Positions 32,601 to 63,121 of a stretch of DNA of 64,000 bases are shown here, piece after piece. Position 1 is the stretch's first letter; each line of letters begins with the position of its first letter. The stretch is from Tubiluchus corallicola (Eukaryota; Priapulida; Priapulimorpha; Priapulimorphida; Tubiluchidae). The notes under the pieces are model-generated. The model was not told the DNA's origin. It made no database searches and saw only the letters and a list, made by a program, of their open reading frames with translations. The DNA lies in NCBI GenBank assembly GCA_030141605.1, contig JAQGDQ010000009.1:1147001-1211000 (forward strand), in the 5' to 3' direction. The position numbers and the translations under genes were made by a program.

Positions 32601-35600
32601 AGAAGCAAAAAATGGACAGTATTGGACGTTACGACCTTCACAGCTGAGTGGGACTTTATTGAATTGATGTTGCTTCAATGTGTAAATACTTCATATAAAA
32701 AATTAAAAATATTAAAAGTTTGATTTTAAAACAAACATTGTCAATGCACTAAAGTGTCATTAGCACTTTAACTCAGTACGACAAACAAAACAAAATAACA
32801 TTGTCTAGATGATGTTTTTCCTAATCACCATAGCCAGTGCTAGCTACGTACATAAGATCTACTGAAGGATTTTGCATGATACAGTATATAAGCTTCAATG
32901 CACGTGTGACACCATGAGTACCGCTCCAGGAGACACCAACTCTAGCGATGCCCCTGATATCAGCTTGCAAATGAATGTCTTGCAGAAAAATCCTACCTCT
33001 CCAAGAACTCTCACATGTTCCATGTACCACTCTTGCACGGCAAACGATTTACCCTCCAATCCAACAATGGGAGCAGGTTCAAGATGGCCACCAATAGGGC
33101 AGGAAAAATACTTTGCAAACATGTCAGAGTCAATTGTAGCTGACATCAATATCACCTACAACATGTGCAAAAATTGTCATGCTAGGAAAAATTTATTTAT
33201 ATTCCATAACAGCTGCAGAAATGATACGTTTAAGAAAATTACCAGTGTCGAGCAGGTAAGCTACAGCAAAAAAGTAGCTAACTACAATTACAGTTACTAG
33301 GAAAACCATGTAGCTGTAAAAAAAGCTAAAAGCATTACGTAAGTCTTGTGGTGCTATTTTGTGGTACAATGAAGGTTTTATAGACAGCTGTTTGTGTGAA
33401 TAAACATATTTTACGAACAACAAACGTGAAATTTTTCTACATGTATAAAAGAGTTAAGAGAAATTCCATATTTTTGCTTCACATTCAATTACAAATAGCC
33501 CACAAATAAGAACACACCACTATAACACACAAGTGAAATAATCAAGGGAAAACAGAAGCAGTGGATGCTCACTGTTTGTATGTCCTTCTCACATAGATTT
33601 AAATGCCATGAGTGTGATGCTGATTGTTCGTGTGATGTTGATTGTTCCAAGCTATCAGCTGGCTTTGAAATGGTAATGGTTGTTGTGGCAGACATTTGAA
33701 GGTTAATGTCATTGTTACTACAATAAAATCATTGTAAACCTCACAGAATCTAACAGAATCTGTGTGGTACAAAACGTAGCAAATAATTAAAGTGTACATT
33801 ATGTTACAAAATTGAATTAGTGCACTATGCTAAATGCTACAGAAAAGAACTAGGGCTAAAGTTTACAAATAACCACACACAAAAAATTAATTAGTGAAGC
33901 GGATTAGGGTTTGGGGCTGGGGTTAGGGGATTAGGGTTAGGTTTGGGGCTGGGGTTAGGAGATTAGGATATTCAAAGTGTGTGTGGAATTGTAAACTCCT
34001 TCGAAAACTAGTTAACTGCGCCACAAATACCACTAAGCCATTATGAAATACTGAAATTTACCTTCACATTCCTTGAGTTAGTCCGCAACAGCTTCCGAGC
34101 AACAAGAAGACAAAAATCTGTATCTGAATCTCTCTCGTGAATCTATGTAAATAATAACAATAAATTGAATAACTCAGAAACATTTCAACATTACGTAATT
34201 TTAATACAATGATGAATGGAAGATCATTATCTATACTTATTTACTTGGCAATTTTGAAAAGTGACTTTCAGAACATGTAAAAAATTATATTACATTATTC
34301 TTTCTCAGAAACAATGCCTCCACGACATGATAAAACTACATCACAATATTCAACTGCAGTATTTGACTTAGAAATGCTAAAATTACCCAAAAAATATCAT
34401 TATGAAGAATGTATACAGAAAATGTAATATTTCCTATTCCAAAACACTCTCGAAGAAATACTCTAAACTTGTCACAAAGCAAAAAAAATTATTTGTACAG
34501 TTTAAATGAACTGCTATCAAAATTAAAAAAATTGCAGCCAATGTTACTACCAGTAATAATGTTTACATGCTTTGCCGCAAAAATATGTTTCTATTAGAAA
34601 TTTGGCCAGGAGCATGCCTGTGTAAGTATGCATAGTGTTTATATGCTTGCTGAAAAGTGAAAAAGTCCAAAGATCTTGAAGTCCAAGTTCGAGTTTGAAT
34701 CCAAGTCTGCTGAGATAATGCTGGAAAACGTACATCGCAAATGGCACACTATGCAGTGTATAATAACGCAATGGCAGTTAATTATTTCACAAACGGAGAC
34801 ATTCATTCACAACAATCATTCCATCAAAATGCTTACACTAAAAGTGCTTGTTATGGTACGTCTGGTTTTAAAGTGCACTTGAAACTCGGAGTTTTTAGGA
34901 AACAATTAACAAGCTCTGGTCAATTGGAAATCTTTTGTGGTGGTTACAGTTATTGTTATGTTTATTTTCAATTAAATCAATGGCTTAATAATTTAAAACA
35001 AACGAATTGAACTCACCTCGTCAAGAACAACATGTGTGTATTCAGTCATTGATTTTTTATGTACTAATTTTTCCAAGAGCACTCCTGTAGTGACGTACAA
35101 CAATCTTGTGTCCGGACCAAAATTCTTCTCTAACCCAATCTGTATTAACGTGATTATACAAAGTTGAGAAATAGACGCATTTTGCTAAAAATGTTCACAC
35201 AACACAATCAGCAGTAAAAAATATTGTCAGAAAAAGACAAATCCTTTTTAAAATGTGACGTAACCTTTTTGCTACAGGTAGCACACTAAATCATCTTTGT
35301 ATGCTCGTACTTCTTCACAAGAAAGAAATCTGCTAAAAACAAAACCTACACATTTGCTACAATTATTTCAATGCAAAAGACGTCACAACACATTTCAAAT
35401 CAGTGAGGATGCAGACAATTTCTTTATCATAAAACAATTTAAGCAACAAGTGTATTATATCGTTATGTTAAGGCGTGTACCATAACGTACAGGCTCATGC
35501 CATCTTGCTTAACCTTGTTACATAGTTTCTATGATAGAATCAGTTTACTGTACTTGTTTAAAGTTTTCAACATTATAAACTGCATACGTTAATTTAAACG

Positions 35601-38600
35601 TAGTTACGATTTGAATGCATGTTAAGATCTGATCTAGTTAAAAATAGGTAGATAGGTAACGAACGAGATAAAAGTTTAACTATTTAGACATACACATAAC
35701 ATCCCCATACCTGATAGCCAACAAGTCCACCTAGTTGCCACTTCTGTTCAGCACAGACACGTTTTGCAATGCTCATAGCAGCAATACGCCTAGGTTGAGT
35801 GACGATGATGTTACAATGTCTTTTCTGCTGATAGGCATGCTCTAGGATGTACTGAGGCACTTGTGTAGTTTTGCCACTGCCGGTACATCCTTGAATCACA
35901 GTCACCTGGTTGCTATCAATGGTGCTGACGATCTACAAGCATATGAGAACATTTTAAAGTTCCCACCACTGAGAATGAATTATTAAGCTTCTTCAAAGTT
36001 TTCTGCCAAATAAAAGAATAGTGCTATAATTTAATATAATTCCAGCAAACCTGTTTAAATACTATTAGCTGCCAAAAGAAAATTCATACTAACATTTTAC
36101 AGTTCTGTGTTACACAAAAGATGTAAAAAGCTTACAACAAACTTTAAACGTGAAGAATTATTACAGCTCAGTACGAAAAACATAATTATTTATTTTAATT
36201 TAGCAAATTTAACAACACATCTTGTTTTCTAACCTTTTCGCGATATTTGGAGATGACTAAATCTCTCTTCTGTTCAGTACGAAATACATAATTTTGAAAT
36301 ATTTGCACGGTCTCATCTGTCCTCTCTTCAGCTTCAGCAGTGACTAGTGGTGCGAAGCTGTCAGGCTCCAAGTCTTCTAAACCATGACTAGCCATTGAAA
36401 GAGAAGGCAGCAATCCACTTAGTTCAATCGGTACCTCTTTTGATGTCGACTAAAATAAAACAGCAGTTGTACGATGATTTAAGATGTAAGATGTAAGTGT
36501 ATTAAGATAATGTAAGATGTAAGTGAACTAAACAAACAACAAACGGAAAACACTGACATCACTGCCTGAAGTGTAGTGTGTATAGTCTACAGGAGTATAA
36601 AACCATAGTTTATAGCTTGTTAGTGAATGATTGCATGTACGTCAAAATATAATCCATTCATTGAAAAAAATCACATAATTTCAATAGCAAAATGTGTATT
36701 AAAATTTACAATTATCCTTCAAGAATTCTCAGTGTTTTGTCTTTCCTAGACTATGATTCTTAGAGAGGATGAAAGGTTCTAAAATAATCAATAACGATTA
36801 AGCCCTGCTTTTGTTTACGTAAAGCAATAGCTTTATATAAATCCTTGCAAAAATGTAACAACATTGTGAAGAGAAATATGTCAACTAATAGCTTCAAATA
36901 TTTACAGTGTGCCATGTTGTATGAAAATGTTCAAAATACCAATATAAGGGCAAAACAAGGAAAAGAGAATACCTGAATCAGAGCTCTGTCTTCCGCCTCC
37001 TTGTAAGCTTTTGCATAGTCATGCGCACCTACTTTCCTACAACATAAAATATCAAAAAAGGATTTCTTTTATTCAGAGACAATGGTGAGCTTTTGATAGA
37101 ACATGTGATTCTTTTTGTATTGTTATTTGTATTTGCAAATTGTTAAGCAACTGTTTAAAGCAGTTTAGATTAAAATATACCAGTAGACTCATCGTGTGAA
37201 AGCAAACGAAATGCAACAAAACCAAAAGTTGCAACTTGAAATGATGAGATTTTAATGATTTAGAAACAATTTGTCATTTATGCAATTTTTAACTATCTTC
37301 TTATCAGCATCTGTTGATGGCACCCATTATGAGAGTCAACATAATAAAATGCTATGTCCTTATGTATAAAATCTACATCTTTTGTGAATTTATATGTACA
37401 ATGTATTGGTGTTTTTATCAGGTGCGAAACGTGGCAATTAGAATTTTACAGAAACAATTTTATGTCCAACACTTTGTTGTGATATAATATGGAACAATTA
37501 CTATCTCAAAAATTAAAGTTGTAACTCTTAACCTGTATTGTACTTTGTTTGGTTTTCTGGTAGATTCCACTGACATTTGACTGTTCACTAAAAGTACTGT
37601 TACATCACCTGTACGTAAATTCACTATACTCTATACAAATTTGCATAGAACTGCACATTAAAAATAAAAACCATATCTCGCATGTTGACTATGAAAAGCA
37701 GCCTTTGTTACTAATACTTAACAATGTATGTGAGCTGTACAGTTCTCAGAAGATTAAATTCTAGTTCAAGACTGATTGTTCCGATATGTTAAAGGTGAAT
37801 ATTCAGGTGTTGAGAATACATAACATTCAAAAACACACGAAACATTGCACCAGTCTGATGTTAAAATTTAAGTTAACTAGCAACTTTTTGACTGAGATTG
37901 AAAAGCAATGATTGATCAAATTATAATTTAATAGCAATAAATTCAAAAGAAAAGTTTACTTTTTGAAATTCAGAACACGCAAGCCTCGTCCTCTTCCCCG
38001 GTTTAAAAGAGCAACATCCTCTTCTTCGTCTTCGCCAGGTCTCACAGTTGGACGCCAGCCCACTCTGGCACCTCCTTTAGCAAACGTTGGATTTGTAGTA
38101 GCCACAACGGATTTTACTTTGATGGGAGCTTTTGGTAGCCCAAACCAGCTATCAATCTGTTCTAGTGTGGCTTCGTCGGTTAACCTGCTCATTTTGCACT
38201 CTTTCAGTGATTCAGCAACACCAACATCTACAAAATTAGTCAATATAAGAAAATTAAAAAATATTTAAACTTAGGAAAATGTAACAAAGAAATTGGCAAA
38301 AAAAACATCTATAAATAATAAAGTTAACTTATACTATAGCTGTAAAGAAATTTTCAGGCATGGTACTAGCTATCATTTATTTTAAATTATGGCGTGACTG
38401 GTGGATTTCGTGATTTCCGTAAGCACATTGTGGTTTTCCGTGAGCGCATGGTCCTTAAACTAATTCATACTTCAGCAGCTTACTTAACGTTCACGTAAAA
38501 AATCTTGCAAAACCTCATATTAAATTTTTCATGAAAAACTGACTGTGCACTACCCTTCTACACTTTTCACGAACATTGAAGTAAGCCTATCTTCCCAGAA

Positions 38601-39022
38601 GTCTTGTTTTCCCTTTAAGTTTGCAACCAGTCCTTCGTTTTATTAAGACCTTAGTTGAAAGTTCTTAAATTTGCAATTTGTAGTTAACTACACCCTGTAT
38701 GGCCCCCTGTATGACCATTGAAAAAGTCATCCAAACTGTCCAAAGAATACAGAGTGAAAATAAGTCAAATTAATTAGGTTTTTACAAACTTTAAAAACAA
38801 ATAAGCTGCCTGCAGTTATAAGTGACCTAATAAATGTTAGTAGCTCTTTAATATATTTTTAAATTAAAAGATGAAAAAGGAACTCTATAGTAATTTTTTA
38901 TATTATTGTATATGATTAGTGTTTTTAGCTAATGATTTTACCCATTAGCCATTTACTAAAAATTGCAAGAACAAACGTCACATACCATTAGTAGCCATTA
39001 TTTGCTGATCCATTAAAGCCAT
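9036..39022 (-). CDS. TDRD9: TDRD9 / spindle-E: DEAH-box RNA helicase with Tudor domain (34 exons)
   Basis: Coding exons, 5' to 3': 39022-38986, 38227-37960, 37036-36973, 36449-36234, 35932-35711, 35139-35017, 34142-34062, 33155-32997, 32348-32245, 31847-31737, 30753-30611, 27891-27689, 26504-26373, 25963-25795, 24859-24732, 24242-24141, 23921-23808, 23579-23472, 23103-23000, 22169-22080, 21214-21092, 20273-20159, 19602-19495, 18009-17881, 17495-17397, 17194-17063, 16873-16739, 14737-14541, 13021-12912, 12272-12176, 11944-11806, 10912-10727, 9764-9589, 9165-9036. Total 4554 nt, 1517 aa (human about 1380). Family role: germ-line piRNA pathway and transposon silencing in nuage. Helicase motifs: GCTGSGKTT (~210-218), TQPRR, DEIH (309-312, split by an intron), SATI (~342), LIFLPG, TNIAESS, QRKGRAGR (~542-549); then the HA2 region. 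The Tudor core FVDFGN lies in exon 25, within residues ~1005-1090. An in-frame TAA precedes the start ATG at 39022. Two oddities: RGRGRG near the N-terminus (37983-38000) and a C-terminal CX2C-X12-HX5H zinc finger (residues ~1486-1508). Homology calls are from memory of the human protein; every exon phase is consistent. Confidence 0.95.
11472..11609. repeat. Trinucleotide microsatellite (TTG)n/(TTA)n
   Basis: An ATT run, then about seven TTG/GTT units at 11483-11503, then about 33 TTA units up to 11609, inside the TDRD9 intron between the exons ending at 11806 and starting at 10912. The leucine-rich open frame across it is an artefact of the repeat. Confidence 0.97.
13340..13440. mobile_element. 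Possible retroelement end fragment
   Basis: A GC-richer patch in AT-rich TDRD9 intron DNA. On the minus strand it reads GATGAAGGGCTCGAAAGC followed by CTAGGCTCCTCCC. GATGA…GAAA resembles the conserved half of the hammerhead-ribozyme core found at ends of Penelope-like elements, but the C and U that should precede GATGA are absent. It may be a decayed copy or only a look-alike. Confidence 0.3.
15586..16380. mobile_element. Non-autonomous hAT-like DNA transposon (MITE), 795 bp
   Basis: The left end is taggggtgcaccgaa and the right end, read on the other strand, is tagggatgcaccgaa: terminal inverted repeats matching at 14 of 15 bases, with the GGTGCACCGA signature common in hAT-superfamily ends. 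Flanking octamers cttgatct (15578-15585) and tgcgatct (16381-16388) share their last five bases, consistent with a decayed 8-bp target duplication. The interior has several ccgaacc motifs and no transposase frame. It lies in the TDRD9 intron between the exons at 16739 and 14737. Confidence 0.8.
24342..24694. mobile_element. Short inverted-repeat element (MITE-like), 353 bp, with central perfect hairpin
   Basis: The ends are atcagaggcata and, on the opposite strand, atcagaggcgta (11 of 12 matching). Inside, 24423-24453 and 24479-24509 form a perfect 31-bp inverted repeat around a 25-bp loop, so a transcript would fold into a long stem. It sits in the TDRD9 intron between the exons ending at 24732 and beginning at 24242. 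No coding capacity. The superfamily is not recognised. Confidence 0.7.
27280..27292. repeat. Poly-C tract
   Basis: A run of about 12 C in otherwise AT-rich intron sequence of TDRD9. It is a likely site of sequencing or assembly length error. Confidence 0.8.
29090..30160. mobile_element. GC-richer, probably transposon-derived patch in TDRD9 intron 11
   Basis: Within the 2.7-kb intron between the exons at 30611 and 27891 the composition rises sharply and the AT-rich texture stops. Two motifs look like RNA polymerase III promoter boxes of tRNA-derived SINEs: tagctcagtcgg at 29963-29974 (A-box type, plus strand) and, on the minus strand, AGTTCGAGGCC near 29160 (B-box type). They are not paired at normal spacing, so this may be two elements or a decayed composite. 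No long frame with recognisable protein was found. Confidence 0.4.
30951..30987. repeat. 18-bp tandem duplication
   Basis: tagggcattttaaactgt occurs twice, one base apart, in a TDRD9 intron. A simple local duplication. Confidence 0.85.
32425..32520. mobile_element. GC-rich interspersed-repeat fragment beside TDRD9 exon 9
   Basis: About 95 bp of GC-rich sequence in AT-rich intron DNA. Its minus-strand translation contains GVTPGIVSPGAARAP and LAMPQ, a motif string I recall from spurious repeat-derived proteins of many animals. It extends the open frame of TDRD9 exon 9 upstream of its acceptor and so produces a misleading 163-codon frame (32678-32187). Confidence 0.45.
33899..33969 (+). repeat. 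Interstitial telomere-like G-rich tract
   Basis: Degenerate TTAGGG units are interleaved with two copies of tttggggctggggttagg. Nine or so G-runs of three or more bases lie within 70 bp, so the plus strand could form G-quadruplexes. It lies in a TDRD9 intron and is therefore not a chromosome end. Confidence 0.85.
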
Positions 39023-39309
39023 TTGCAGAATGTCTTGATTAACATATTACTAATGTAACAAACAAGCCCACATATTTACAAAAGTCTAAAAACTCTGCAA
39101 TGTTTCAAAATCAGTAAACACTACTAATTTACTTTTGTGATTCGTACAATAAAGAACAAGCTATAACTTTTTTCATTTTCTAGTGAAAGTAACGATAAAT
39201 GACTGTTAGTCAACTAAATTAAACAAAAGCTTGCATCTTTATAAAACAGTTGGATGTGGAAATACAAAAATAAGCAGCAGAAAGACGACTTGTCAAAAAG
39301 AGAATTACA
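39023..39309. promoter_or_regulatory. Shared intergenic spacer between divergent TDRD9 and GPCR genes
   Basis: Only 287 bp separate the TDRD9 start codon (minus, 39022) from the GPCR start codon (plus, 39310). Both 5' UTRs and both core promoters must fit here unless non-coding 5' exons lie further away. On the plus strand TATAAAAC at 39240-39247 sits 63 bp before the GPCR ATG, a reasonable TATA-box distance. Confidence 0.5.
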
Positions 39310-40263
39310 ATGGATCAGACTTATGAAAATGTCTCATCTTTAACCGATGCTGCTCAGCTATATGCTTCAACTCAAGCAATCATGGGTGCTTGTTTACTGT
39401 TACTTGGAATAGCGATCATTACAGCAAATGGTATCGTTATATTGACTGTAATTAAATCGCACGTTCTGCACACACCACTGTACTACATACTGTGCAGTTT
39501 GTCTATTGCAGATTTGTTTGTCGGAATAATCATTGTTGCAGGGCTAATTGTCTATAACTTGATAGAAGTAACAACAAGTGATATTGTGATTTGCGGAATT
39601 TTACATGGATTTAATCACAATTCTATTGGCATTTCAATTTTCATGTACTCTGACGCCGTGATCGAAAGATTCATCAGTATCAATTACCCTCTTCGTTACC
39701 ACAGCCTGCTGTCGGAACGGAGAGTGATCCTGTGTCTGGTTGCCCAGTGGTTGTTTCTATGTATGACGTTGATCACCTATATCATGTCGTTCATTGACTC
39801 CGCTAGCATTCTGTACAAATGTGTTCCAGAACCAACCAGCATTTTCATGGATGGAATATTTTATGTAGCTACCATTTCATATCCTGTTCAATTCATGTTC
39901 ATTCTTTTTCTTTATGGCATCATCTTAAGAACAGCCTTAAAACAGGTGAAAAGAACACATGCTCTGAATTCCATTTCACGGCAGGTAGAAGAAACCATGG
40001 CTTCACAAATTCGTGCAAAAATGAGACCAATTAAAGCCCTTGGCATGGCCATCATGTTTTTCCTTACTGGATATGTGCCGCTGATATTTACTAATATTGT
40101 ATGGATAAAGACTGGAGAAAACTGGATCATAAATCGATATAATTACTACTGGTTTTATATACCAGCCTACTGTAACTCTTTTGCAAATGTATTCGTGTAC
40201 ATAGCAAGCCTAGATGAATTCAGAAATGAAATGAAAAAGCTTTTCAGCATTCACCGAAGATAA
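39310..40263 (+). CDS. Rhodopsin-family (class A) G-protein-coupled receptor, single exon
   Basis: An uninterrupted 317-aa frame with seven hydrophobic segments. Class A landmarks: Asn40 in TM1 (ANGIVIL), Asp68 in TM2 (SLSIADL), Cys95 before TM3, and ERF at 119-121 in place of DRY followed by NYPLRY. TM6 has FFLTGYVP, without the usual CWxP, and TM7 has NVFVY at 293-297 where NPxxY is expected. A likely N-glycosylation site is Asn7-Val-Ser. The C-terminus is short (DEFRNEMKKLFSIHRR) with a probable helix 8. The pattern recalls the intronless, lineage-expanded receptors of early-branching animals, loosely similar to melanocortin, adenosine or lipid receptors; the ligand cannot be named. It could be a retrocopied or tandemly amplified family member; no second copy is in the window. 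Confidence 0.93.
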   Translation: MDQTYENVSSLTDAAQLYASTQAIMGACLLLLGIAIITANGIVILTVIKSHVLHTPLYYILCSLSIADLFVGIIIVAGLIVYNLIEVTTSDIVICGILHGFNHNSIGISIFMYSDAVIERFISINYPLRYHSLLSERRVILCLVAQWLFLCMTLITYIMSFIDSASILYKCVPEPTSIFMDGIFYVATISYPVQFMFILFLYGIILRTALKQVKRTHALNSISRQVEETMASQIRAKMRPIKALGMAIMFFLTGYVPLIFTNIVWIKTGENWIINRYNYYWFYIPAYCNSFANVFVYIASLDEFRNEMKKLFSIHRR

Positions 40264-41034
40264 TGACTGACACATAGAAGAAATATCAATATATTTAGAA
40301 GAAATGTTCAATTTTTGAGCAACAGCTTGTTGAAGAAGTCTTTTGAAGCACAAAATGATAAATTTAAATCACACAGATGTGTCCAAAACTCATAGTACCT
40401 AATGCCAGGGTTTTATGGGGCTGCGATTTTTTTGAGACAATCGAAAAATTCTTGCGACTGCATTTATGTTGCAGATCATTCTTACAAAGTTCGCACAAGT
40501 TTTAACGGGAATTTTTTGCATTTTTCCTCGTGTCAAAATCGTATGACATGTCTGTGAGTATTTGGTGACTTTTGAAACACTTAATGCGACACATACGTGA
40601 CAAGGCGTATGTTGCAAGAAATTTGTGCGAGTATATTGCAATCATTTCACGAATTTTTGCAGAAAGAAGAGCACGATAACTGAGGCTCACAAAAAAGCTG
40701 CATTGTCAAAATGTTGCAAGATACGCAAAAGTTGCCGGAACACTCTCATAAGAGTCTCACTATCTTTGCCAAGATCTCGCGGATTCTGAAATTGATACTA
40801 ATGTCTGGTGCATGTTATGACAACCTTACAACAGTTTGGCGAAGCTTTGGCGAAGTAGCAAGTTTTGCAATTCCATTGACAAACTTTAAATATTTAAAAA
40901 AAAATTGACTTTTGATGACAATGACAAACAGTGCATGTTTCGCAATTGTTTGGAGAACTTTTGGTGACCATTGGATTTGGAAATTTGCGGATAGTGAAAG
41001 CCTGGTTTAAGCAGTAAACACATACAAATCGCTT

Positions 41035-41235
41035 TATGTCCAGATGTCCTGTGTTAAAATGTCCACTGTGTCCAAATGACCTGTGTCCATAAAGCCTTGT
41101 GCCCAAACTACCTGTGTCGAAATAAATATGGGTCCAAGCTCCAAAGGCCTTGTGTCAAAATTACCTATCTGTCCAAATGTCTATTGACAAAACGTTCCTG
41201 TATCAAAATACCTGTGTCGAAATGTCTGCATACCG
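41035..41235. repeat. Degenerate short-unit tandem repeat
   Basis: Variants of a unit near cctgtgtccaaatg (about 14 bp, irregular spacing) recur a dozen times, for example gtgtccaaatgacctgtgtcc, then cctgtgtcgaaat near both the middle and the end. No coding meaning is inferred. Confidence 0.7.
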
Positions 41236-41673
41236 TTTTTAAATGTTGTGATAGCGCCACAAAAGAAATCAAATTGCAAAGTACAAGTTTAATAATTAAT
41301 ATAACACAAAAGGGCTTTTGACACATCAAAGCTATCCGCATATGAAAGACAACGTAGCTATGTAAGAGGGTAGCCGAGAGGGAAAAGACCACATAGTTAC
41401 ATGCTGTCCCACATTTTTAAATTCAGAATCATCTACATAAGTACTAGACCAGTCTGGAACAATTACCTGTATTTCTAAAAAGTATTTTGCGACACACTAG
41501 ATTACAAACAAGAAATCTAAATACAACGTCTTTAAGTTTGATTTTTATATTATGAAGAACAGAATAGAAAAACAAATCTCTGCATTCGCGAAAAAAGTTA
41601 GTTGAAAAATGTTTTTAGCACAAATTATAACTGAAAAAGTTATAACTATATTTCACAAGCAAATGTAGATATA

Positions 41674-42395
41674 GGGCGCAAAGTACGCCACTAGCCCAAG
41701 CAGGACACTCGTTAAGGCGCTTGTGCTAAATTTGCGGGATAACAGTGTCGTACATGGGCGCCCAAGTAACCGCACTGGCAATTTCTGTTGAAAATCGAGA
41801 ATTATGACATAATGAAACGTAAAACTGAATTTGTTTTAGAAAAAAAGTAACTTTATAATAATGATGGATACTCCTTGACAATTTACAATGTATTTTTTAC
41901 AATAGTATCGTCACTATTATTAGCGCCATTAACATCATCATAACATTAAACTAAGTATCCAATGTTTTAAGGAGAGAAACTATGTAGGGCACATAACTCG
42001 CTAGCCCGTTTATTTAGTAGAAAACAATTATTTGTCCAAGAGGTAGTGGAGCGAATCACCTGTCTGTGAAGCAAGACAAAATAAAAATGATATACCTTAA
42101 GCAAATGTTGGAATCGCCTAAGAAGTGGGCTTATTTCGCTTCAAAAAGATTAATATCGAAGCCAAATTTAATATTGGCCATTTTACTAACTCAAAATAAG
42201 ATTCTTTTATTTGACCAGAATACATATGAATTATTCAACGTTTTTGACGTTTTCAAATAATATTATTAAATAAAAAAGGATAACGGGCGCTGCCAGTAGG
42301 GTTAGCGACTCAATTTGACCAGCCTCTAGTGTCCTACTTGGGGTAGCCCATGTACGCCAATTGTCCTACTTCGGCTAGTGGATTACTCGGCGCCC
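41674..42395. mobile_element. Non-autonomous DNA transposon with 34-bp terminal inverted repeats
   Basis: The two 34-bp ends (plus strand from 41674; minus strand from 42395) both begin GGGCGC, share CCACTAGCC, and match at 28 of 34 positions. A second, inner pair (gtacatgggc from 41751 and its complement near 42345) repeats the theme. The interior is AT-rich with a 64-codon frame (42066-42260) of no recognisable content. No clear target-site duplication was seen. Confidence 0.65.
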
Positions 42396-43330
42396 AACAC
42401 ATTGGACGATGATGATGATTTCACTTCAGGGTTTTGCTATTAAATGTTTTTGAAACTATTATTCTTAGTTACTTGTTGCAGAAGTGCTTATCTCTACTGT
42501 TAGCAAGTAATGAGGTTCCCAATGGTGACGAAGGTGAGAGATCTATGGTAGATGGTTTTCAGGTGAAGAAGTCGAGTAAAGACTAAAGTTAGTATTATTT
42601 ACTTAATGAAAAATATTTAGGCTTAACTACTGTACTAGTAGTGCTACTTAGAGAAAGTGAAAATGGAAATTGTTGGAAAGAAAGGATTCAGGATTTGAGA
42701 AAAGCTATTGGTGCATTAAAGTATACGGCTATCTCTTCAGATTCAAGAAGAAAAGTGGATAGAACTGGATGGAAGGTCCATAATTGAATAGAGTGCCGAT
42801 AATTGTGCCTAAGATAATGTAGAGTTGTGTTTGTAGGATATTTTATCAGAAAAAGGTGAACTTTTATGATAGTATGCAGGATGAATTTGTAAGATAACAT
42901 GAATATAGAAAAAAAGGTGTAGTAGAGCTGCTGTGAGAGGAGAACTTAGATTATGTTTATGGATAATGACAGACTGGTTAAAATGGTAATAGCCTTTGCA
43001 GTGTGTAGCAGAATCGGGTCTAAGTGGGTTAGAAGAATGCCATTTTTAGCTGCCTAACTTAATTTAAAAGTCTTTGGAAACATTTTTGCTCTAGGAGAAG
43101 TTTCGCAGGATGGGTTGATAAAATAACTGACATAAATTCTAGTGAAAAAGGTTGGAATCACTTAATTGAAAAAATGGTGAACGAAAAGGGTTGCAGGACA
43201 AAATTGACTGCTACCGCTGATGTTCTTTGCTAATATGATGTTTTCTATCTGCTACATGTGTTCTATGTAAAATGTTTTACTGCTAATATGTATTTGAACA
43301 ACAACAAGCCAACAATCTTATTTTGAAAGC

Positions 43331-50200: not shown

Positions 50201-51923
50201 TAACTTTGTGTGGGAAGTTTTTGGGACATACTTAAAAAATTGCCTTTTCTTTCTTTTTAATCATGTGTGATGCTAAAGCTTCAAATTCACTTCAGGTAGA
50301 ATCATGATCAATAATCACTAACAAATCGTCCTCAAAACTGAAACATAACCAAGAATTTCTTTAGACATTGACAACAAAAAAGTTATAAAAAATGAAAATT
50401 TGTCCACGTTAAACTAATAAATTGCAATGTTTCTTGTTTGTTACGTCTTATTGGCTTACATCTTTAATATGTATAAGTAAACAAGCATATAGTGCTCTCC
50501 ATTATCGAGACTAACTTTGAACTGAAGCTGCCCAGCTTGTCTGAGTTTTTGGTCACCTGAATACTGACCTTACTTGCAACCTTAACGTAAACCTCACTTG
50601 CAAACCTGAAACGTGTTGGGCAAATTCTAAAGTGCAATGGTAATTTATTGGTAAAGACATCCAGTTTTTATGTTCTTAACTGTACAATACTTATTTAATG
50701 CTTAATAAATGTGCTTCCTTTTTTGTAAATGCACTTGCATCGTAAATGTCCTTTATTGTTATTACATAAAACACTAATTCGTCCCGCTTTCATGTGATAC
50801 AGTATTTTGCTGATTGTGCTAGTCTGTACTTTATACCTATACCTGCTTTGCTACATTGTTTTTACTACTAGATCTAGTAGTGGTTAATTATAACTGTAGC
50901 AGTCTGAATAGTGGCGGTTTTGGTATTTTTAGGCAAGCATTGTCAGAGATATTTGATATGGTGGATTTAGATGGAAATGAGCTGCTAAGCAGGGAAGAGT
51001 TTAACCTGTTTAATTTGAAAACTAGTGGAGAAGAAGTTGCAGACGATGAATGGAATGTTGTGGAAGGTACATTAGCTTATTGAAAATATTTTTATTTAAT
51101 AATTATATTAACAGAATTTTATGTAACATTGTTTATGTAACGTGGATTTCACTTGTGGATTAAACTGCTGTCTGTAAATTAAAAATGAGTTGTTACACTG
51201 AATGTGAATTTTGTGTTATGTATGTGTTAGATTGCCTTGAACACAGTAATCACAAGTACAAGTTGTTTATCCTGTTAACAAATTATTCTAGTAGTTGGTA
51301 CTCATATAGATAATTCTAGCTATAAGAAAACAATATTTTTTCTGTACAGAAAACGTTCAAATGGAAGGGGATGAACTCACTCTTGAAGGTTTCTTGGAAT
51401 TACATCAAATGGAAGCTGATGATAGTGATGGTGACACTGAAGATTTGTGGATTACTCTTGCTACTATGGGTTACAGCAAGAGCTTAGAACTCGATGAGGT
51501 CAGACACGTTAAGTATAAACACATAAGGAATAATTCTTCGACAAGTCATTAAATAAAAATTATTTTCATTTGGTAATTGGATAGTTGGGTCCTAGTTAAT
51601 GCGACTCCACTGCACTAAACTTGAAACACTTGTTATCTTTTTCTGCTCATCAAATTGCATAAAATTTCATGTAACAGTTTGAAACAAGTTGAATGTTATT
51701 GTACATTGTAGATTATCTGAGCCAATTAGAGAAAGGTATGTTGTGCATTTAAACAGAGTGTAAGAGCCTGAACTTTGTGGTAAATTCTTGTCAGCAATTT
51801 TGAAAATTTATGTTTAAGTGGCTGTGTTGTTATTTGTTATTAACATTTATATTTTTCTAAATCTGTGCCAATTTTTGTAATGTTGTTTATGAACTATAAA
51901 GTTATTATTGTTAATAAAATTCT

Positions 51924-51963
<40 letters not shown>

Positions 51964-53545
51964 CTGCTACTGCTACTATTACTAACTCAGTGATAGCCTT
52001 TGAACTAATGTTGTTTATGTTTAAACATTTAGGCCTGTCCATATAAGATGGATGTATACCTAGATGACTGTAAAGGTGATTTGGTTACTGAAAGCATACG
52101 TCCAACTGATGCGCTGATGCAACAAGCATTGTCTCATTCTATAAAAGTCAAAGGCAGCAGCAACTACATTGAAGGTGACCATTCGATTGTCCTGCACACG
52201 TTTTCTTGTCCAACCCGAGTGTCTTACGTTGTTGAAAATAAGGTGAGATTTCATATAATAGTCCATTTTTTCATTTCTAAGTCAGCATGAGGATAAGGTA
52301 TGAAAGTCATCAATTGATTGTTGCTCTAAACTGACATTGCTCTCCTTTTTGTTATAATTATACTTGCTATATAGGGATATAATGTACATATTTCATCCCT
52401 CATGCATGATTTGAATTGAGGAGTGGTTTCATCTTTTGCTCTTCATAGTATGAAGAAATACAATAATGAAATCCAGCACCTTGTTGTGTCAGTCAAGCAT
52501 TGATCCTTTTCTTGACGATTAGTAAAGACAAATCAACTGTATTTAAAAAGTTGCTAAACGCCAGTAGAAACGGAACAAAAAGGATGTACACGTGCTTCCT
52601 AACATAGCAATGATTTTTTGTGGCACACACACTTGATATTTATTTCTTTTCGTAGTCGCATCACACTATGAAAGTGGAGTTAGATTGCAGTAGAAGTGAA
52701 AACTGTGTGAGCAGCCAACATTCGTCCTTGATTACCCAGATTGCCCTATCGGCAAAATCAATGAAGGTAAGTTGAAGTCACATGTTGTAACTTTTGTGTG
52801 TATGCTCACTAAACCTGCAAACGGTGAAAACTACCGAGTATGTATACGAATTATAATTGCCATCAGCGTGTTTGTTCTTGAACTAAGTTATTTTTAACAA
52901 ATCAAGTATGTGTATTTACAGCATTGCATGTATTAGTTTATTGTGTTTTTATTATTTAGTGAATTGCATTATGCCACTTGATTAGGCTTCCAAGGTTTAT
53001 TGTAGGTTATTTTTTCTGCAACAAGGGTAAATTTAAAAAAAAGCCAGCTAACATGGTCCGTAATAATATAGCATTTGCTCACTTTTTGATTTTTGTCTAC
53101 ATCAAATAATCAATAGAAGCAATACCAGCCCTGGGATGAAAACACACCCCACTGAGTTTTAATCAATATTATAATCAGAGTAAGTGATATGCTTTGCATC
53201 AAATTGCTTTTAGCACACAGATAACCATTGAAAAACAGAAGGGGACAGGTACCCTGTGGCTTCATGACAAAATGATACGCTTAACTAAATGAAAATGTTT
53301 GAGGTGTCTTTAAATCTTTTTTCCAGTGGGTAAGGGTTAAACAAAGCACTTTTTAGGCATTCATAATTTCTATAATATTATTCACTAGTTACTACGTACT
53401 TTAAAAAACATAACATATCCTGAATGTTCCTGAATCAACTTTATGGTTTTAACTTAATGCCTGCATTTAGGTGGCCCTGCATCTTATGCCTTCAGATGAA
53501 ACTTTAGACTGGACAGCTGTTTGTGAAGCAAGCATCATCAAGTAA
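44210..53545 (+). CDS. EFCAB7: EF-hand calcium-binding domain-containing protein 7 (16 exons)
   Basis: Exons: 44210-44324, 44879-44944, 45194-45339, 46255-46341, 46498-46666, 47357-47469, 47762-47903, 48524-48556, 48650-48804, 49288-49332, 49641-49801, 50933-51066, 51350-51498, 52033-52242, 52656-52766, 53471-53545. They join into 636 aa (human 629). An in-frame TGA at 44201 lies just before the chosen ATG. In vertebrates EFCAB7 works with IQCE to anchor the EVC-EVC2 complex at the base of the primary cilium, aiding Smoothened signalling. Three EF-hand loops look calcium-competent: residues ~91-102 (exon 3), 127-138 (exon 4) and 422-433 (exon 12). Other landmarks: GRNPS in exon 2, DWYHLHSKGVFYLDE in exon 7, STGCRL in exon 11, DLWITLATMGY in exon 13 and ACPYKMDVY in exon 14. 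Exon 8 is a 33-nt microexon. The exon 10 donor was placed at 49333, not 49331, because only that keeps the frame. Confidence 0.95.
51922..51981. repeat. (CTG)n/(CTA)n trinucleotide repeat in EFCAB7 intron 13
   Basis: About eight CTG units, then alternating CTA and CTG units, on the sense strand of the intron between exons 13 and 14. A polymorphic microsatellite is likely. Confidence 0.95.
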
Positions 53546-54855: not shown

Positions 54856-57800
54856 ATGTCAAGTTTCCATTTGATCATTGTACGTCAGTAAGTATTTCAC
54901 GGTTTTTACAAGTATGGTTGCTTTTCTTTTCAGGTACACATAATTTTTCCCCAAGGCTAGGCCACATATTATACTGCAGAATAAATCTGACTAAAAAATT
55001 GAACTATGCCTGTATTCTGCATCAGATGACATCGCATTAATGCCTAGTAATTAATTTATAGTTCCCTAAACCATCACCTGGTTATGTGTAGCCAAGCATG
55101 TCTTTTACAACCATTTATATGTGCACAAACGTATTTATGTATAGGTCTATGTTTTTAAAACAGTTGATTATGTAAAATTGCTCTTAAAATTTTGTCTCTT
55201 TTGCAAATTGTGATTTGTTAGTATTTTTCTACGGTTCAGTTTTTGCCTTGTTGTTTTTCTTGCTTTACTTCTAAATTACGTCCATATCATGAGTTGATGG
55301 AACTGCTGTTGCATGTACTACATACAACTTGTTAAATATATGTATTACCATTACATGTGTTCATCGTAATTATTGTCTTGGACATTTCAGTGGGGAAACT
55401 GATGACAATGCACTATACAAGGTGCAAGGTAAACTAATACTTTATACGTAATATACCTAATATTTTACGTAAATGTACTGTTTTCACATTTTTTACAAAT
55501 ACATACACAAAAAGAAGTGCTAATATTTGCTAATGTGAGTAACTTATTTAAATTAGGCAAATAGCCAAGTTGTTAACAATTTTTCAATATCGCCATGCAA
55601 TACTAGGCAAAAAATACTTTGTGTGTTCTATTTGCAGGACATTTGGACAGCAAGTTGTCACTAGTCGGGCGAAAACAATCTGAAGCTGTAGCTGAGACGT
55701 TGAAAAATGAAGTAATAAATCATGCATACTCAAGCGATCTGTCTCGTGCCATGGATGTGGGTAGTAGATTTGTCTAATATTTTTTTATTTGGGCAGGCAT
55801 AATTAGAGTCATCTCAGACAAAAAATTGCTTAGTGCTTAATTGTATAAAGAATTAACATTATTGGCTTCGATTTCCCAGCAAAAACAGCTAACTGAAACA
55901 TTGAATTGAACTTCAGAAAGTCCTCTTAAACTTCTAGTTGAAAGTAAAACAACATCTCTCAGTGGACTGTTATTGAGCGCTGCAGATTAGAGCAAAATTT
56001 GGTTGCAATTTAATGGGTGCAAGCTAAAGATTGACAGAATTGTCTGCATATTTACCGGTTGAAGAATCACAAATCAGTATCAGAAGGGAATCAGTACTAA
56101 AATTCAATTGGCATCATAAGTGATCAGCATCTACAGTTTAAATAAAGATTATTGTGAATGAAGATTTGCTAGACGATATATAGTACAAATGAAAATTAAA
56201 AGAGAGAAACGTGTGATATGATATGATATAGATTATGATATACTTAAATGTAGTTTTTTTTGACAGACTGCAAATGAAATAATGTCAAAAAACATCTCAC
56301 AGTGTAAGCTTGTGGCTGAACCTTTGTTACGTGAGAGGGTAAGTTCTAAATTTGGATCTCATTTCTATTGTTGTCTTTTTTTAAATAAAAGTCTTGTGTA
56401 ATTAAGGACATTTACTACGTTTCAATTTCTTTTGAAAAGTAAGAGTATGGGTTACTCTAGATTTCATTTGCAACTGTTGTACTGCAGGTTTTATGTTTAA
56501 AAATCCTCTCATCTGCAGTGTAGGTGCTACAAAATGAACAGCTTTCATTTCTATTACAGTCATGGGGCATCTTTCAAGGTAAAACCTATGCTGAGTTAAA
56601 AGCAGCAAAAGGAGCCAAAACTATTGAAGAATTCACACCAGAAGGTGCAGAGTCAATGAAGCAGGTAAAAATGGTGTGTTGTAAACTTACACATTGCACA
56701 TAAGCTTATATAAGGATGATTTTTTGAAGTGAATAAGAACCACACTTTTGTGCTTTTGTAGTTTTCACAAAGAGCCAAAAAATTTCTCAATCAGCTGTGT
56801 GTAAAGTTTGCTACAAACTACACCGAAACAAAGCCAGTTGACAAGGCTACACCAGACTATGACTGTAACAAAAACCTTGAAGATAAAAAAGAAACCACAA
56901 CTGGAAGTAACTCAACGTTGGAGCAGCATAATGGCGACACCAGTAAGAATGTGGTGTTGGTTGTCACTCATGGTGGATTCATTCGTGAACTGATACAACA
57001 TCTTAGAGCTGAATTTAACTGCAGGTTTCCAGAGAACAAAGATAGACATGCTTTAAATATCAGCCCTAATACTGGTAAGCAAATGTTAGATGTACGTATT
57101 ACTAATATATAAATTTAAATATTATTATATTTGTTAAATTAAAGGCTAACCGACACACTTTGGACGGTTTTTCAGAATCAATAGCCAGTGTGGCTGTGAT
57201 TAAGAAACCATTTTTCCGCTAGAGGTGCTTTTTAAGGGAGAAAATCGCCTCCAAAAGTGGTGTTACTCCAACGTAGCCATGTTTACAGAAATTTTTCTGC
57301 ATTTTACATGTATTCGATATAGGCTTGAAAGCTTAGAATTGCCCTGAAGAGTTTTGAGATGTACATTGAGTTTTGATATAGGTTTATTTTATCAACGAAC
57401 CCAAGAATTGTTGATGGCATTGCTTCTTTCATAAGTTTGCGTACTTTAGTATTTACATAACTTAAATTCAAAAGATTTTAAAGTCAAGATTGAGCTGATG
57501 AACTAAGCTGTCAAATAATGTTTTATTTGGTTAGATCAGTCTTTAATTCAAAGAATGCGGACTTAGTTTTTTTCAGAGAGGATAATTAATTTTATGCTGT
57601 TATGGTGACAGCAGGGATGTTTTAATGTACTAAAACAAAACTTTGGGTAACAGAAGCAATTTAAAAAAAAAGATTGGTCATGAGTAATCAAACTGAGTCA
57701 ATTGCATTTCCCTATATTTGAAAATAAGGGTGTTTTTCTTTCATTTTGATATAAGCCTACTTTTGCTATTTTGTCTGTGTTATTGGAAAAAGGATAATAA

Positions 57801-57965
57801 TCATATTCATATTTAGGTGTAAGTAAATTCTCAATCAAACATCCAGTGCCAGGAAGGGATTCTTCCAGAAGGAAGGAAGCTGTGTGCATTCTTCTACATG
57901 ATGCTCAACACTTAACAGATGCTTCCTTAGTACCAAGAAGCACTAGTGTCTACAATGCTGTATAA
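54856..57965 (+). CDS. TIGAR: TIGAR-type fructose-2,6-bisphosphatase (histidine phosphatase, 7 exons)
   Basis: Exons: 54856-54887, 55391-55428, 55638-55756, 56267-56338, 56560-56664, 56762-57074, 57817-57965. They join to 275 aa (human 270). TIGAR belongs to the phosphoglycerate-mutase-like histidine phosphatases; it degrades fructose-2,6-bisphosphate and related sugar phosphates, slowing glycolysis and favouring the pentose phosphate route. Exon 1 encodes only ten and two-thirds residues, with the catalytic RHGET motif split across intron 1 (Arg10, His11, Gly12). SSDLSRA and LLRERSWG carry the phosphate-pocket arginine and the likely acid Glu86; the second catalytic histidine is in VVTHGG (His192). 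ALNISPNTG matches the TIGAR C-terminal region. A loop of about 40 residues rich in K, E and T precedes VVTHGG, as in vertebrate TIGAR. It is tail-to-tail with LTO1. Confidence 0.95.
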
Positions 57966-58763
57966 CCTAGATTGCAAGTATCTTAGTAAATAAAAAATAA
58001 AGCTCACTTCAGTAGTTATTCAAATGAAAAGTTTTAATTAGGTATATCTAGGGTCTGCTGTTATTTATGATCACTTAAATGTTTATTATAGTAATGTAAA
58101 TAACTGAACTATTTATTTGCCTTGCTACGAGATTACTGTTGGATGATTCAGAAAGATGACAATTTTATTGTGCTAGCATTTGGAAAGTCATTGATTTTAG
58201 TAAGTAATTGTTTGAGCTAACGGCTTTCTACATAATGAATGAAATAGTCTTTCTCTTTTGATCTGTATATCCCTTGTTAACAGTCTGACTCTCGAAGTAG
58301 GGGAATATTTCCATAGTTTATCTGTAAAAGAATAATTTTGTGCTAAACTAGCTGCAGAATTTAAGTGACTTTTGTCTTTTAAAGCCAAATCTGTTACTAT
58401 TCACTGCAAGTACCAATACAGGACTAGCATATCAGACCATCAGCAGTTATTTTATGGTAAAAAAATGGTAAACTGAAACATTTATATAATGATATAATAA
58501 TAATAGTGTGTATCATGGTAATGTGTATGTATCATAATAATAATTGCATTAAAATAGCCACTAGAGCTTCTGTGTAGGTATCATGTATTCCTTAGTGTAC
58601 ATCAGCATGCATTGATACTCATTAATTCTTTTATCTGTACAAACAGAACTAGTCAATAAAATGTGATGTTATATTAAAAATTTGATCTTGGAAATTTGCC
58701 TTTACTGAAGCCTTTCACAATTAGGAAAGTACAGCATAAGCATGCAGCACACAATCTAAGATT
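57966..58763. other. Convergent TIGAR/LTO1 3' region
   Basis: AT-rich, with no gene seen. It must hold both 3' UTRs. A small frame on the minus strand (58388-58197) has no recognisable content. Confidence 0.7.
57989..58001 (+). terminator. TIGAR polyadenylation signals (tandem AATAAA)
   Basis: Two AATAAA hexamers (57989-57994 and 57996-58001) lie 24-36 bases after the TIGAR stop codon. Confidence 0.6.
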
Positions 58764-61399
58764 TTAATCAACAAGGTTCTGTTTTTCTGCATTTAATTTG
58801 TTCAGAGTCCACAAACTTCCACCAGTCACTGCAGGAGTCACTCTGTAAAAAAATTGCACAGTTATGTGTTATCCATATTGATTAAAAATGTAATGGAGTA
58901 CCAAATTCCTTTAATTATAAATTATTTTTACACAGTTTAGCGAAAAAGCTTTAGCGCTACCTTTCGAAGCATTCTTTTTCTCAGTTTTGGTCAATATATC
59001 ACAGTTTAGTTGAGGCATTCAAGATTCCCAATTCCCATATCATTAGAATGCTAAAGATTTACTTGACTGTGTTTTACTTGGTGAATTGCTAGCAGCATTA
59101 GATGCATTCAACAACGACGATACCTGTAACATAGATAATTCTACACAACCATTAACAATTAGAACACTGAATCAAGAGATATAAATAATATTATAGGCTC
59201 CACACCTTTCACAGAACAAGCAATGCCATAAATTTAAATAAAAAAATTTAACTTGATTAGAGTAAACACATAAATAAATAGTTATGATCAATCAAAATGT
59301 CTAAATTTGTTACATTGTTTCACCTGTTTAAATTTTGCTTTAATTTTGTTAACATCATCTGTGGTCTGTAGTTGTTCTAATGATGACTCATCTATCATTT
59401 TTAGTAAACCTTGTAATGCCTTGATCTTCCTGTAGAAAATAACAGAGCGGTCTTATCAGTTTCTGTTAGGAAAATCCAAATGTTGCACTCGTGAGTAGTA
59501 AAAGGAATCTAGCAATTATTAACAAAAAGTAACATCTATACAATGCTGGAATTGTTAAATTTTAACCGGGATTATACCAACATCTAAAGTATTAGAACCG
59601 AGTGCCATATTGCATTTTTTACCATTATAAATGCTATTGGACAAATACCTTTCTTTTTTACTTGTGCAGCAATCATTAGTGGTAGACGAATGGGCGTTCA
59701 GTATATTATCAAGTGAAGCTGCAGCAAAGCCTTTTATAAAACCAACCTAGTAAAATGTTATGTCGTTAAAGTGAAACACAAGGATGAAAAATAAAAAAAA
59801 GTAAAAAAAATCTTTTGTATCGACAGCCTCGCCAGGTGGCAAATGGAAAACAACATTATCTGACAAACAAATGGATAACATACTACAATGTTACATGTAG
59901 TAATTTGTTTTCATTAAGTTATTTTTGCTAGAATATTCTCAACAGTTTTACAATATTATAGATGATTTTCTATAAATAAATTCTGTGTTTATGTGAGTCC
60001 TCAAATCTTGTAAATCTATTTGTCAATTGAAGGACTTTTTAAAATAGATGTTTTAGTTTGCTATTAGAAACAAGCTTTTTAATGTGTAAGTAAATTAATG
60101 AATAAAACTTATAAATTATAATTAATAAGTATTAGAAACAAGGATGGGCTCTTTAATACAGGAAACACGAATGCACACAGCAGTGGAATTGTGGAGTTAT
60201 TGATCTACATTAGCACCATTTTGTTGCAAATCTATGGAGTTTGAAAACTGTTTGGATGACTAAATGGAATCAAGAATATGATGATTTCCTTAAAATGTCA
60301 TAGTTTTGCACGTGGCTGCAAAGCTACAATTTTAATATTTGTGACAGTACACCTTTCAGCAGTTTTTTAAATAACTAAAAACAAACAAATAAATAAAATG
60401 TATTTATAAATAAATAAAAAAATCTGCTCATCTCTGTCGAAGAACAAGAAACAAATTTGAAAATGCAATCTAAAACCAAAAGTCACAAAATGATTCAAAA
60501 TTTCAGTTTTACAAAAAACTAGGGGTTTACTGTGTACAATAATAAGAACTCGAGTCGTTGAAATCATTTTGTACAAGTATTTCCAAAAGAAGACTATTTT
60601 ATTTTCACACAAATTAAGCATATGTCTTCAGGCAAGAGTTGTTAGAAGTAATAAATCTAGTAAATTATAGGTCTTCTAAGAAATTAGCTTTAACTATATA
60701 ATACAGATGACATTTACTCTACAGACACATATCTGGAATGTGCAGTGAGTAAACATGTGATTAACTGGCAGGTATGGCTATATGATTGATCCGGCAAATG
60801 TAGCCTTGCAGTTTGTAGCATACAAAGCAGTGCACAAACAGTTTGCATTGCATTTAGTTTAGCAAAAAGTTATAACACATTCAAGTTTTGGCGTCACTTA
60901 ATGCATGTTGCCCTGTTTTACCCATACTTGTAAGCCCAGCTGTATCCCCATCTGTATCGCATCTGAATTTTCTTTTTCCCGCTCAGCCAGGGTTCCATCT
61001 TTGTAGCCTTCGTTGTAACCATGTCGTCTAAACCTACATAGTAATTGCATTGGCAATGAATGCGACCTGTCATTTCAACAGATTAGGCCAATGTTTTTTT
61101 AACAAATTTCCAGTCTTTTACATCAAAATGACTATTATCCAGGAACATAATTCATAAACTAAATTGGACTCCTCATTATACACAATATAGGGATCTTAGT
61201 ACTTTCCAGCAGTTATTAATGCATAAATGTGAACTGACAGAAAATTTGACATCAAACTCTCCCAGACAGTAGGAATTTATTTAATAAGCAAAAAATTTAT
61301 TACAGCAGTCCTGGGTCATATAGTAGTGAAGGGATACCTTTCTTCAGAACATTCTATAGCATCAAATATGTCATTGATATCCGAACCATCAGAATCCAT
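58764..61399 (-). CDS. LTO1: LTO1 (ORAOV1): Yae1-Lto1 adaptor for ABCE1 iron-sulfur cluster assembly (6 exons)
   Basis: Exons, 5' to 3': 61399-61338, 61033-60928, 59746-59649, 59429-59324, 59123-59063, 58840-58764. They join to 169 aa (human 137). With YAE1, LTO1 links the cytosolic iron-sulfur targeting complex to ABCE1/Rli1, needed for ribosome recycling. The start MDSDGSDINDIFDAI matches the family's acidic FDAI opening. Exon 2 holds the deca-GX3 pattern (HGYNEGYKDG…MGIQLGLQ) continuing into exon 3 (VGFIKGFAAASLD). Exon 4 carries KIKALQGLL and IKAKFKQ, followed by VSSLLNAS, matching human KFKQFCSLLN. The last exon was chosen by phase alone (acceptor AGAG, 58841-58842) and ends …LNAEKQNLVD, without the aromatic C-terminal residue known from human and yeast LTO1; that exon is the least certain part. 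Confidence 0.88.
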
Positions 61400-62778
61400 A
61401 TTGTCTAATGGTTGGTATTTGGCCTTCAATCTAAAAAAGAAGTAAAAACAAGAAACTATAACTAGACTTCTGTTTACTACTAAGTCATAAACTTAACGAT
61501 TCTGCAACATAACTAGAACTGCAACATGAACAGTATTCAAAAACTATATTTGCTGACCTTGACCTTTTGCTTCAAGAACACAATTTTGTTTTTACTAAAT
61601 GTATCATGTTTGATTATCAAGGCATTTTCTTTCGTTTTAATGACATTCGAACTTGTCACATTTGGATTCGTGACTCGTGCTAACAGTTAATTTTAGTGTC
61701 CTCATAAACCAAAGAGATTAGCATCAGAGGTACTCGAAATGCAAATAAACAGTGCACATGAAAGGTCATGGTATAATGAAGTAGTTGAGGCTGCAAAAAA
61801 TATACCATAGATGCTAATAAAGAAAGGGTGAATGTCATGAAAAAGTCTGAATGGAAGAAAGAAATAAAGAATACGATTGAATGTTTTATAAAGAATAAAT
61901 ATTCAGAAAAATGCAGGAGCAGCACTAAATTAAGATTTTTAAGGCATACCGAGTGGAAACGACAAAATTACAAAGACACATGCAAGCCGAATATGATTAA
62001 AGTTAAAGGAAACTACAAGAATGAGTTTAACGATCAGTTATTATGCCCAGTGTGTGGGGAAGATGATGATACTACTGAACATATGCTTAAATGTGACAGA
62101 TATGGAGCATGGAAAAAAATGAACTCAGATACATTAATGAACAGTGAAAAGGAAGGATTGCTAGAAATTAGAAATATAGTGAACGAATGCATGGAATACA
62201 GGATAAAGACATTAAACTGGGAAAAGACAACTAAAAGATCAGCGTTATGGAAAAATAGACTTTGCACCCAATAAAGGTGCCCGCTTCTGATAGGTGCAGA
62301 GAGTCGAGTATCGCAATCGCAACATATCGTAATTGCAGTCATGTCACGAGTCCTAAATACCTCAGTTGTTCCGTTAATGTTTACTCTCCATTCCAGGCAA
62401 ATGAAAAATATAAACTTAAGTTTAAGAAAAGTTAACTAATTAAGACTTTCAACAAACGTGTTTTACAATATCGGAAATTTTTACCTTGGTGGTACCAGTG
62501 GTATTGTAACTTACAAAGATTTCCCACATTATTTTACTAAGGCAAGGTGAAAAGGCGTGCAAGACGAATTACACTGTAGACGTTTTTTTGGAAAAGTTAA
62601 TGAAAGTTTGTATCAAAAACAAAACTAAAATTATGAAACTGAAAACGAGGGAGAGGATCAATGAGTAAACACCACCACTGCTCGCTAGTGCAACTCACAT
62701 GATGTAAAATTTACTTCGCAGTTTAAATACTGCTGGTACTGAAAGGCCTGAGATATTGTTCTGTCACTTATATTAGTG
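61400..62778. other. LTO1 / SLX9-like divergent intergenic region with LINE fragment
   Basis: Contains the 5' end of LTO1, a LINE 3' fragment (about 61740-62274) and about 500 bp of AT-rich sequence before the next gene. An acceptor-like CTTTTTTAG just upstream of the LTO1 ATG suggests that LTO1 may have a non-coding 5' exon in this region. Confidence 0.6.
61740..62274 (+). mobile_element. 5'-truncated LINE (non-LTR retrotransposon) 3' fragment
   Basis: The 149-codon frame at 61828-62274, open upstream to about 61801, is lysine-rich and carries CPVCGEDDDTTEHMLKC, a CX2C…HX4C motif typical of the region after the reverse transcriptase domain in LINE ORF2. Just upstream, in another frame, HERSWYNEVVEAAKNI continues the same type of sequence, so there is at least one frameshift near 61800. 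No reverse transcriptase core is present; the copy is dead. The LINE clade is not determined. Confidence 0.7.
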
Positions 62779-63121
62779 ATGGGTAAAGTTGCGAAACTCA
62801 AAAAACAATCTGAAGTACGGTCACATCCTTTAGCAAGTGGACTAACACTGTCAAGAAAATTAGGTAAAACGAAAGCTGCCAAACTTAAACAGAATAAGTT
62901 GCGGCGACTTAAAAGTGTTACGACTGCAAAAAGTGTTGTTGATCAAGCTGATTTAAAAAGTGAATATTCTGTTTTCCTCAAAAATCAGAATGCAACAGAG
63001 CAAGCAAACAAGGGTGATAAGAAGGTTATTAGCTTCGGCAATCTAGCGGAAGGCAAAGTAACTGGTACTCGGACGACAAGAAAGAAAGATAAACAGAGAC
63101 TTCGCCACAAATTACTGTTAA
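62779..63121 (+). CDS. Small basic nucleolar-type protein, possibly SLX9/FAM207A, first exon
   Basis: ATG GGT AAA GTT opens a lysine/arginine-rich frame: MGKVAKLKKQ at the start and RTTRKKDKQRLRHKLLL near the end. SLX9/FAM207A, a nuclear 40S-ribosome assembly factor, also starts MGKV and has a KKEKMKLRRE block in its C-terminal part, so the match is plausible but weak. The exon is closed at a GTACTT donor (63122) after LLL, because the following 40 codons turn abruptly into a hydrophobic, U-rich intron-like stretch before a stop at 63241-63243. The rest of the gene would lie downstream. Alternatively the frame runs on to 63243 as a 154-aa protein with a C-terminal membrane segment. Confidence 0.5.

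Follow-up and report, generated by a model that had tools for sequence, protein, structure and literature searches.

Tail-to-tail TIGAR and LTO1 genes in the priapulid Tubiluchus corallicola: a possible gene pair of early animals

The genes TIGAR and LTO1 (ORAOV1) are adjacent in the genome of the priapulid Tubiluchus corallicola, where they occupy positions 54856-61399 of a stretch of 64,000 nucleotides (hereafter the window, corresponding to C679:1147001-1211000) and converge tail-to-tail, TIGAR on the forward strand being followed by LTO1 on the reverse strand. Exon reconstruction of both genes upheld the coordinates, the adjacency and the orientation reported in an initial annotation of this DNA. 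TIGAR belongs to the phosphatases of the fructose-2,6-bisphosphatase type, and LTO1 works with YAE1 in cytosolic iron-sulfur delivery; both are intact, ordinary genes in the window, and a function or regulation shared between them is neither implied nor needed by what follows. We consider it an evenly balanced question whether the pair retains an ancestral adjacency that was split by reciprocal loss after the vertebrate genome duplication. The interpretation offered initially, that this is an invertebrate relic of the duplicated vertebrate cyclin D-FGF regions, is partly supported in our analysis, being plausible but unproven and overstated.

Results

The TIGAR gene (54856-57965, forward strand) is made up of seven coding exons (54856-54887, 55391-55428, 55638-55756, 56267-56338, 56560-56664, 56762-57074 and 57817-57965), with GT-AG borders at all six introns and a frame that stays open throughout its 275 amino acids. 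Its identity is borne out by the predicted protein, which matches the Pfam family His_Phos_1 with an E value of 1e-36 and finds its best match in the PDB in 3dcy (1.7e-28; PDB label 'REGULATOR PROTEIN'), which we take to be human TIGAR. The next distinct PDB sequences are the two forms of Zgc:56074 (3e9c, 9.1e-25, and 3e9e, 2.3e-23), presumably zebrafish Tigar, and the best phosphatase other than TIGAR lies far behind at 2.5e-13; these matches place the protein, a member of histidine phosphatase branch 1, nearer to vertebrate TIGAR than to the remaining phosphatases. The residues that we assume to form the catalytic site of human TIGAR, i.e. His11 (in the RHGE motif), Arg61, Glu102 and His198, are all kept in the PDB alignment, within the segments IVRHGE, SSDLSR, LLRERSWG and VVTHGG.

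A TIGAR search of the whole assembly (343.5 Mb in 2344 contigs) retrieved seven matches, five of which are exons of the gene in the window while the other two are weak matches on contig C1761 (36% and 26% identical). The better of these was rejected as a second TIGAR, since it belongs to an intronless phosphatase frame with RHGC replacing RHGE. TIGAR was thus found at a single locus, with no sign of a recent duplicate. The intronless frame on C1761 (751500-752300, in a contig of 873,888 bases) is phosphoglycerate-mutase-like, encodes 219 residues and looks bacterial by eye, and C1761 is possibly a symbiont or contaminant contig. Comparison of TIGAR with viral contigs yielded 13 stretches, with four partial phosphatase matches.

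LTO1 (59324-61399, reverse strand) consists of four consistent coding exons (61338-61399, 60928-61033, 59649-59746 and 59324-59429) joined in frame through GT-AG introns. The encoded protein is identical to a provisional version of the human LTO1 sequence at 41 of 121 residues (34% over 121 amino acids), in an alignment that covers most of the protein; the Smith-Waterman score of this comparison was 166, the maximum in 2000 shuffles being 55. Because the match to Pfam Yae1_N stays below the curated cut-off (18.2 versus 27.5 bits, E 0.002, profile positions 24-39 of 39), the LTO1 call rests on the similarity to the human protein, on which basis we are sure of the predicted identity. Two further Pfam families were matched even more weakly, and the PDB search with LTO1 returned no LTO1-like chain at E values up to 10. 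A genome-wide search for the Yae1_N family gave no match in this genome and none in the control genomes either, which leaves it uninformative on the copy number of LTO1; among prokaryote contigs 50 stretches fitted a pattern for LTO1 relatives, none of which was confirmed.

The 3' end of LTO1 is not sure. A possible fifth and last exon (58764-58842, reverse strand) is in frame and has an AG acceptor, but its peptide is unlike human LTO1 and we regard it as doubtful. The spacing of 0.8 kb first reported for the pair depends on this exon: it holds if the exon is right, with 798 bases between the coding ends (57966-58763), and grows to 1358 bases if it is wrong. Within the shorter version of this convergent gap, AATAAA occurs on the forward strand at 57989 and 57996, as candidate signals for TIGAR, and TTTATT (AATAAA on the reverse strand) occurs at 58082, 58112 and 58164, where it could serve LTO1; the use of these signals by the two genes is suggested by the motifs themselves. 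The Pfam score of LTO1, its doubtful last exon and the provisional human comparison sequence are what could be put forward for a wrong gene call or a false assembly join having made false neighbours of the two genes. Nonetheless, both lie within the window in one continuous sequence without a single N, LTO1 scores well above the shuffles and TIGAR is clear, which makes such an artefact very improbable.

The order of the genes on human 12p13 is, as we take it, CCND2-TIGAR-FGF23-FGF6, whereas the priapulid TIGAR has neither a cyclin D nor an FGF neighbour. In mouse, too, Tigar keeps company with members of these gene families, Fgf6, Tigar and Ccnd2 being named as neighbours of Fgf23 in a 2017 article (PMC5842943). 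For human 11q13, a 2007 article (PMC1903365) gives the order CCND1-ORAOV1(LTO1)-FGF19-FGF4-FGF3-TMEM16A-FADD and presents CCND1-ORAOV1-FGF19-FGF4 as conserved in chicken and fish. The two articles bear out most of the vertebrate layout invoked in the initial annotation. LTO1 is beside cyclin D in human and beside TIGAR here, where the cyclin D and FGF matches fall on other contigs. On the other hand, the claim that an overlay of the two vertebrate blocks predicts exactly TIGAR(+) followed by LTO1(-) went too far. Overlaying two three-gene blocks fixes only that both genes stand between CCND and FGF with the strands assumed for human, and which of them comes first stays free; tail-to-tail and head-to-head arrangements thus fit equally well, and the match in orientation is a one-in-two chance.

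It had been proposed that cyclin D and FGF genes be looked for in the flanking sequence, and the outcome was negative. C679 is a contig of 1,572,605 bases, with about 1.2 Mb lying before TIGAR on the left and 364 kb lying past LTO1 on the right. None of the 21 Cyclin_N matches in the genome falls on it. Two cyclin D loci are present elsewhere: the one at about 35.5-42.7 kb (35541-42680) of C2001, a contig of 213,746 bases, matches cyclin D3 (2.6e-54) and cyclin D1 (4.8e-46) ahead of a viral cyclin (1.7e-21), and the one at 554,981-555,683 of C2137, a contig of 649,352 bases, matches cyclin D1 (4.5e-39) ahead of a viral cyclin (2.3e-18). Each cyclin D gene must therefore be on another chromosome or, if it shares a chromosome with the pair, be separated by more than about 364 kb from LTO1 on the right or by more than 1.2 Mb from TIGAR on the left. 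FGF is likewise missing from the matches on C679: six of the eight in the genome exceed the cut-off, on C264, C1186 and C1829, and the other two, which fall short of it, lie on C264 and C1496. Matches above the cut-off on three contigs would speak for an animal that is not a typical sponge. A motif scan for FGF that covered 264 kb of C679 together with 17 kb of C2001 was also negative, with a crude pattern that would miss some FGFs. Anoctamin, the family of the TMEM16A gene in the human 11q13 block, gave 27 matches, on C639, C464, C1078, C2042, C1080, C1987 and C669, and none on C679, and neither of the two cyclin D contigs carries an FGF or anoctamin match. The cyclin, FGF and anoctamin searches had matches in none of the 14 control genomes and were hence run without a positive control. 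With all three families off C679, a larger CCND-TIGAR-LTO1-FGF block is unsupported in this genome.

A single invertebrate genome here contains cyclin D at two loci, by a duplication that may be old or specific to the lineage. Upstream of the locus on C2001 a CFAP61 domain (PF23150, E 2.8e-21) was found at C2001:28142-28390, which makes a further adjacency suited to comparison among animals; nothing recognisable was found in the 4 kb beside the locus on C2137.

Several other genes and features surround the pair. The upstream (5') neighbour of TIGAR is an EF-hand gene on the forward strand (50823-53545, with approximate borders and a start possibly further left), which reaches 28.1 bits for EF_assoc_2 (PF08356; cut-off 23.7) on two joined pieces and which we take, by eye, to be EFCAB7-like. 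Beyond LTO1, a frame on the forward strand (61789-62271) resembles by eye the last part of a LINE-type retrotransposon protein, with a CPxC...H...C motif; its best Pfam match (E 0.13) is not significant. This frame lies between LTO1 and the start of an SLX9-like ribosome biogenesis gene (62764-63120, forward strand), which continues past the window at L022:968-1102 and matches PF15341 SLX9 at E 1.8e-4 with 22.5 bits, under the cut-off of 27. Next comes a WD40 gene that by eye resembles IFT80.

Further from the pair, the window contains a long open frame for a rhodopsin-type G protein-coupled receptor (39274-40260, forward strand; 7tm_1, E 3.8e-22), a DEAD/DEAH helicase-like exon below the Pfam cut-off (35717-35932, reverse strand) and a piece resembling by eye the start of TDRD9 (37971-38228, reverse strand), which together with the helicase-like exon would be a piRNA-pathway gene. 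To the left of the window, C679 carries a large inverted duplication of fibronectin-III-type sequence (about 1,047,006-1,076,320 versus 1,107,835-1,130,715) in 13 aligned blocks of 437-4610 bases. As these blocks are 77-95% identical, the duplication has diverged and is not a simple assembly palindrome.

Discussion

Our comparison covers one animal genome, that of the window itself, in which the side-by-side position of TIGAR and LTO1 is firmly established. It is tempting to speculate that the two genes formed an as yet undescribed ancient animal pair beside cyclin D before the vertebrate genome duplication, and that reciprocal loss left TIGAR with one vertebrate cyclin D copy and LTO1 with another, a reading that we hold tentatively, at slightly less than even confidence. 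An old adjacency is the explanation that we favour among those considered here. An early animal would have had the pair next to cyclin D, and the vertebrate genome duplication would have copied the block; the copy in the CCND2 region would then have kept TIGAR and lost LTO1, while the copy in the CCND1 region would have kept LTO1 and lost TIGAR. In the present lineage cyclin D and FGF would have left the pair, whose two genes remained neighbours. What was observed are the end states of these steps. What speaks for this history is the adjacency with its orientation, together with the position of one of the two genes beside cyclin D and FGF in human and in mouse, as described in the two articles cited above, the single locus found for TIGAR and the small number of coincidences to be expected by the rough arithmetic given below.

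Several observations weigh against it. Neither cyclin D nor FGF accompanies the pair on C679, and the EFCAB7-like, SLX9-like and IFT80-like neighbours, named partly by eye, presumably lie outside human 11q13 and 12p13. The pattern was, moreover, picked after the fact. A set of ancestral metazoan gene pairs with conserved microsynteny was reportedly described by Irimia et al. in 2012; the pairs listed are adjacent in several species and are often tied to a developmental regulator. The TIGAR-LTO1 adjacency may likewise date from early animals, but human and mouse have the two genes in separate places, both genes are metabolic and the adjacency was seen in one genome. Of 80 ancient metazoan pairs reported for the sponge Amphimedon, a study that reused the set (PMC5429095) counts 60 as unambiguous, so that few gene pairs survive so long. 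In the literature, at the level of titles and abstract openings, no mention of a TIGAR-LTO1 adjacency was found; the sole paper to contain both words concerns, at that level, a breast cancer prognostic signature.

How readily chance could have joined the two genes was estimated by rough arithmetic with assumed inputs, which puts the number of such coincidences expected in a window of about seven gene pairs at 0.0006-0.03, before orientation, the upper values applying if both genes were already on one ancestral chromosome. TIGAR and LTO1 may indeed have belonged to the same ancestral chromosome, of which 11q13 and 12p13 would be duplicates, and later shuffling may have brought them together in this lineage. 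The scattering of the cyclin D, FGF and anoctamin matches over other contigs indicates a largely scrambled local order, in keeping with such a history, and an assumed 12-fold same-chromosome enrichment leads to 0.0076-0.03 pairs per window before orientation, which is not negligible over many windows; the expectation for one window is still far under one, however, and the tail-to-tail order is one of the two arrangements allowed by the overlay out of four. We therefore see a coincidence inside a conserved linkage group as a possible explanation of some weight, although not a probable one. A plain coincidence between genes without shared chromosomal ancestry would agree with the failure to find a wider block, cyclin D and FGF being off C679, and with flanking genes that presumably do not map to a single human region, yet it is unlikely, the rough expectation being 0.0006-0.0025 per window before orientation. 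If many windows are scanned, we judge a true ancestral pair and a coincidence to be about even.

The animal genomes already sequenced are enough to answer the question directly. Should TIGAR and LTO1 be adjacent in other invertebrates, the pair would offer a clean case of reciprocal loss after the vertebrate genome duplication. The CCND2 and CCND1 regions are amplified in some tumours, and an ancient TIGAR-LTO1 pair, if true, would explain how two unrelated genes came to lie beside these cyclin D genes.

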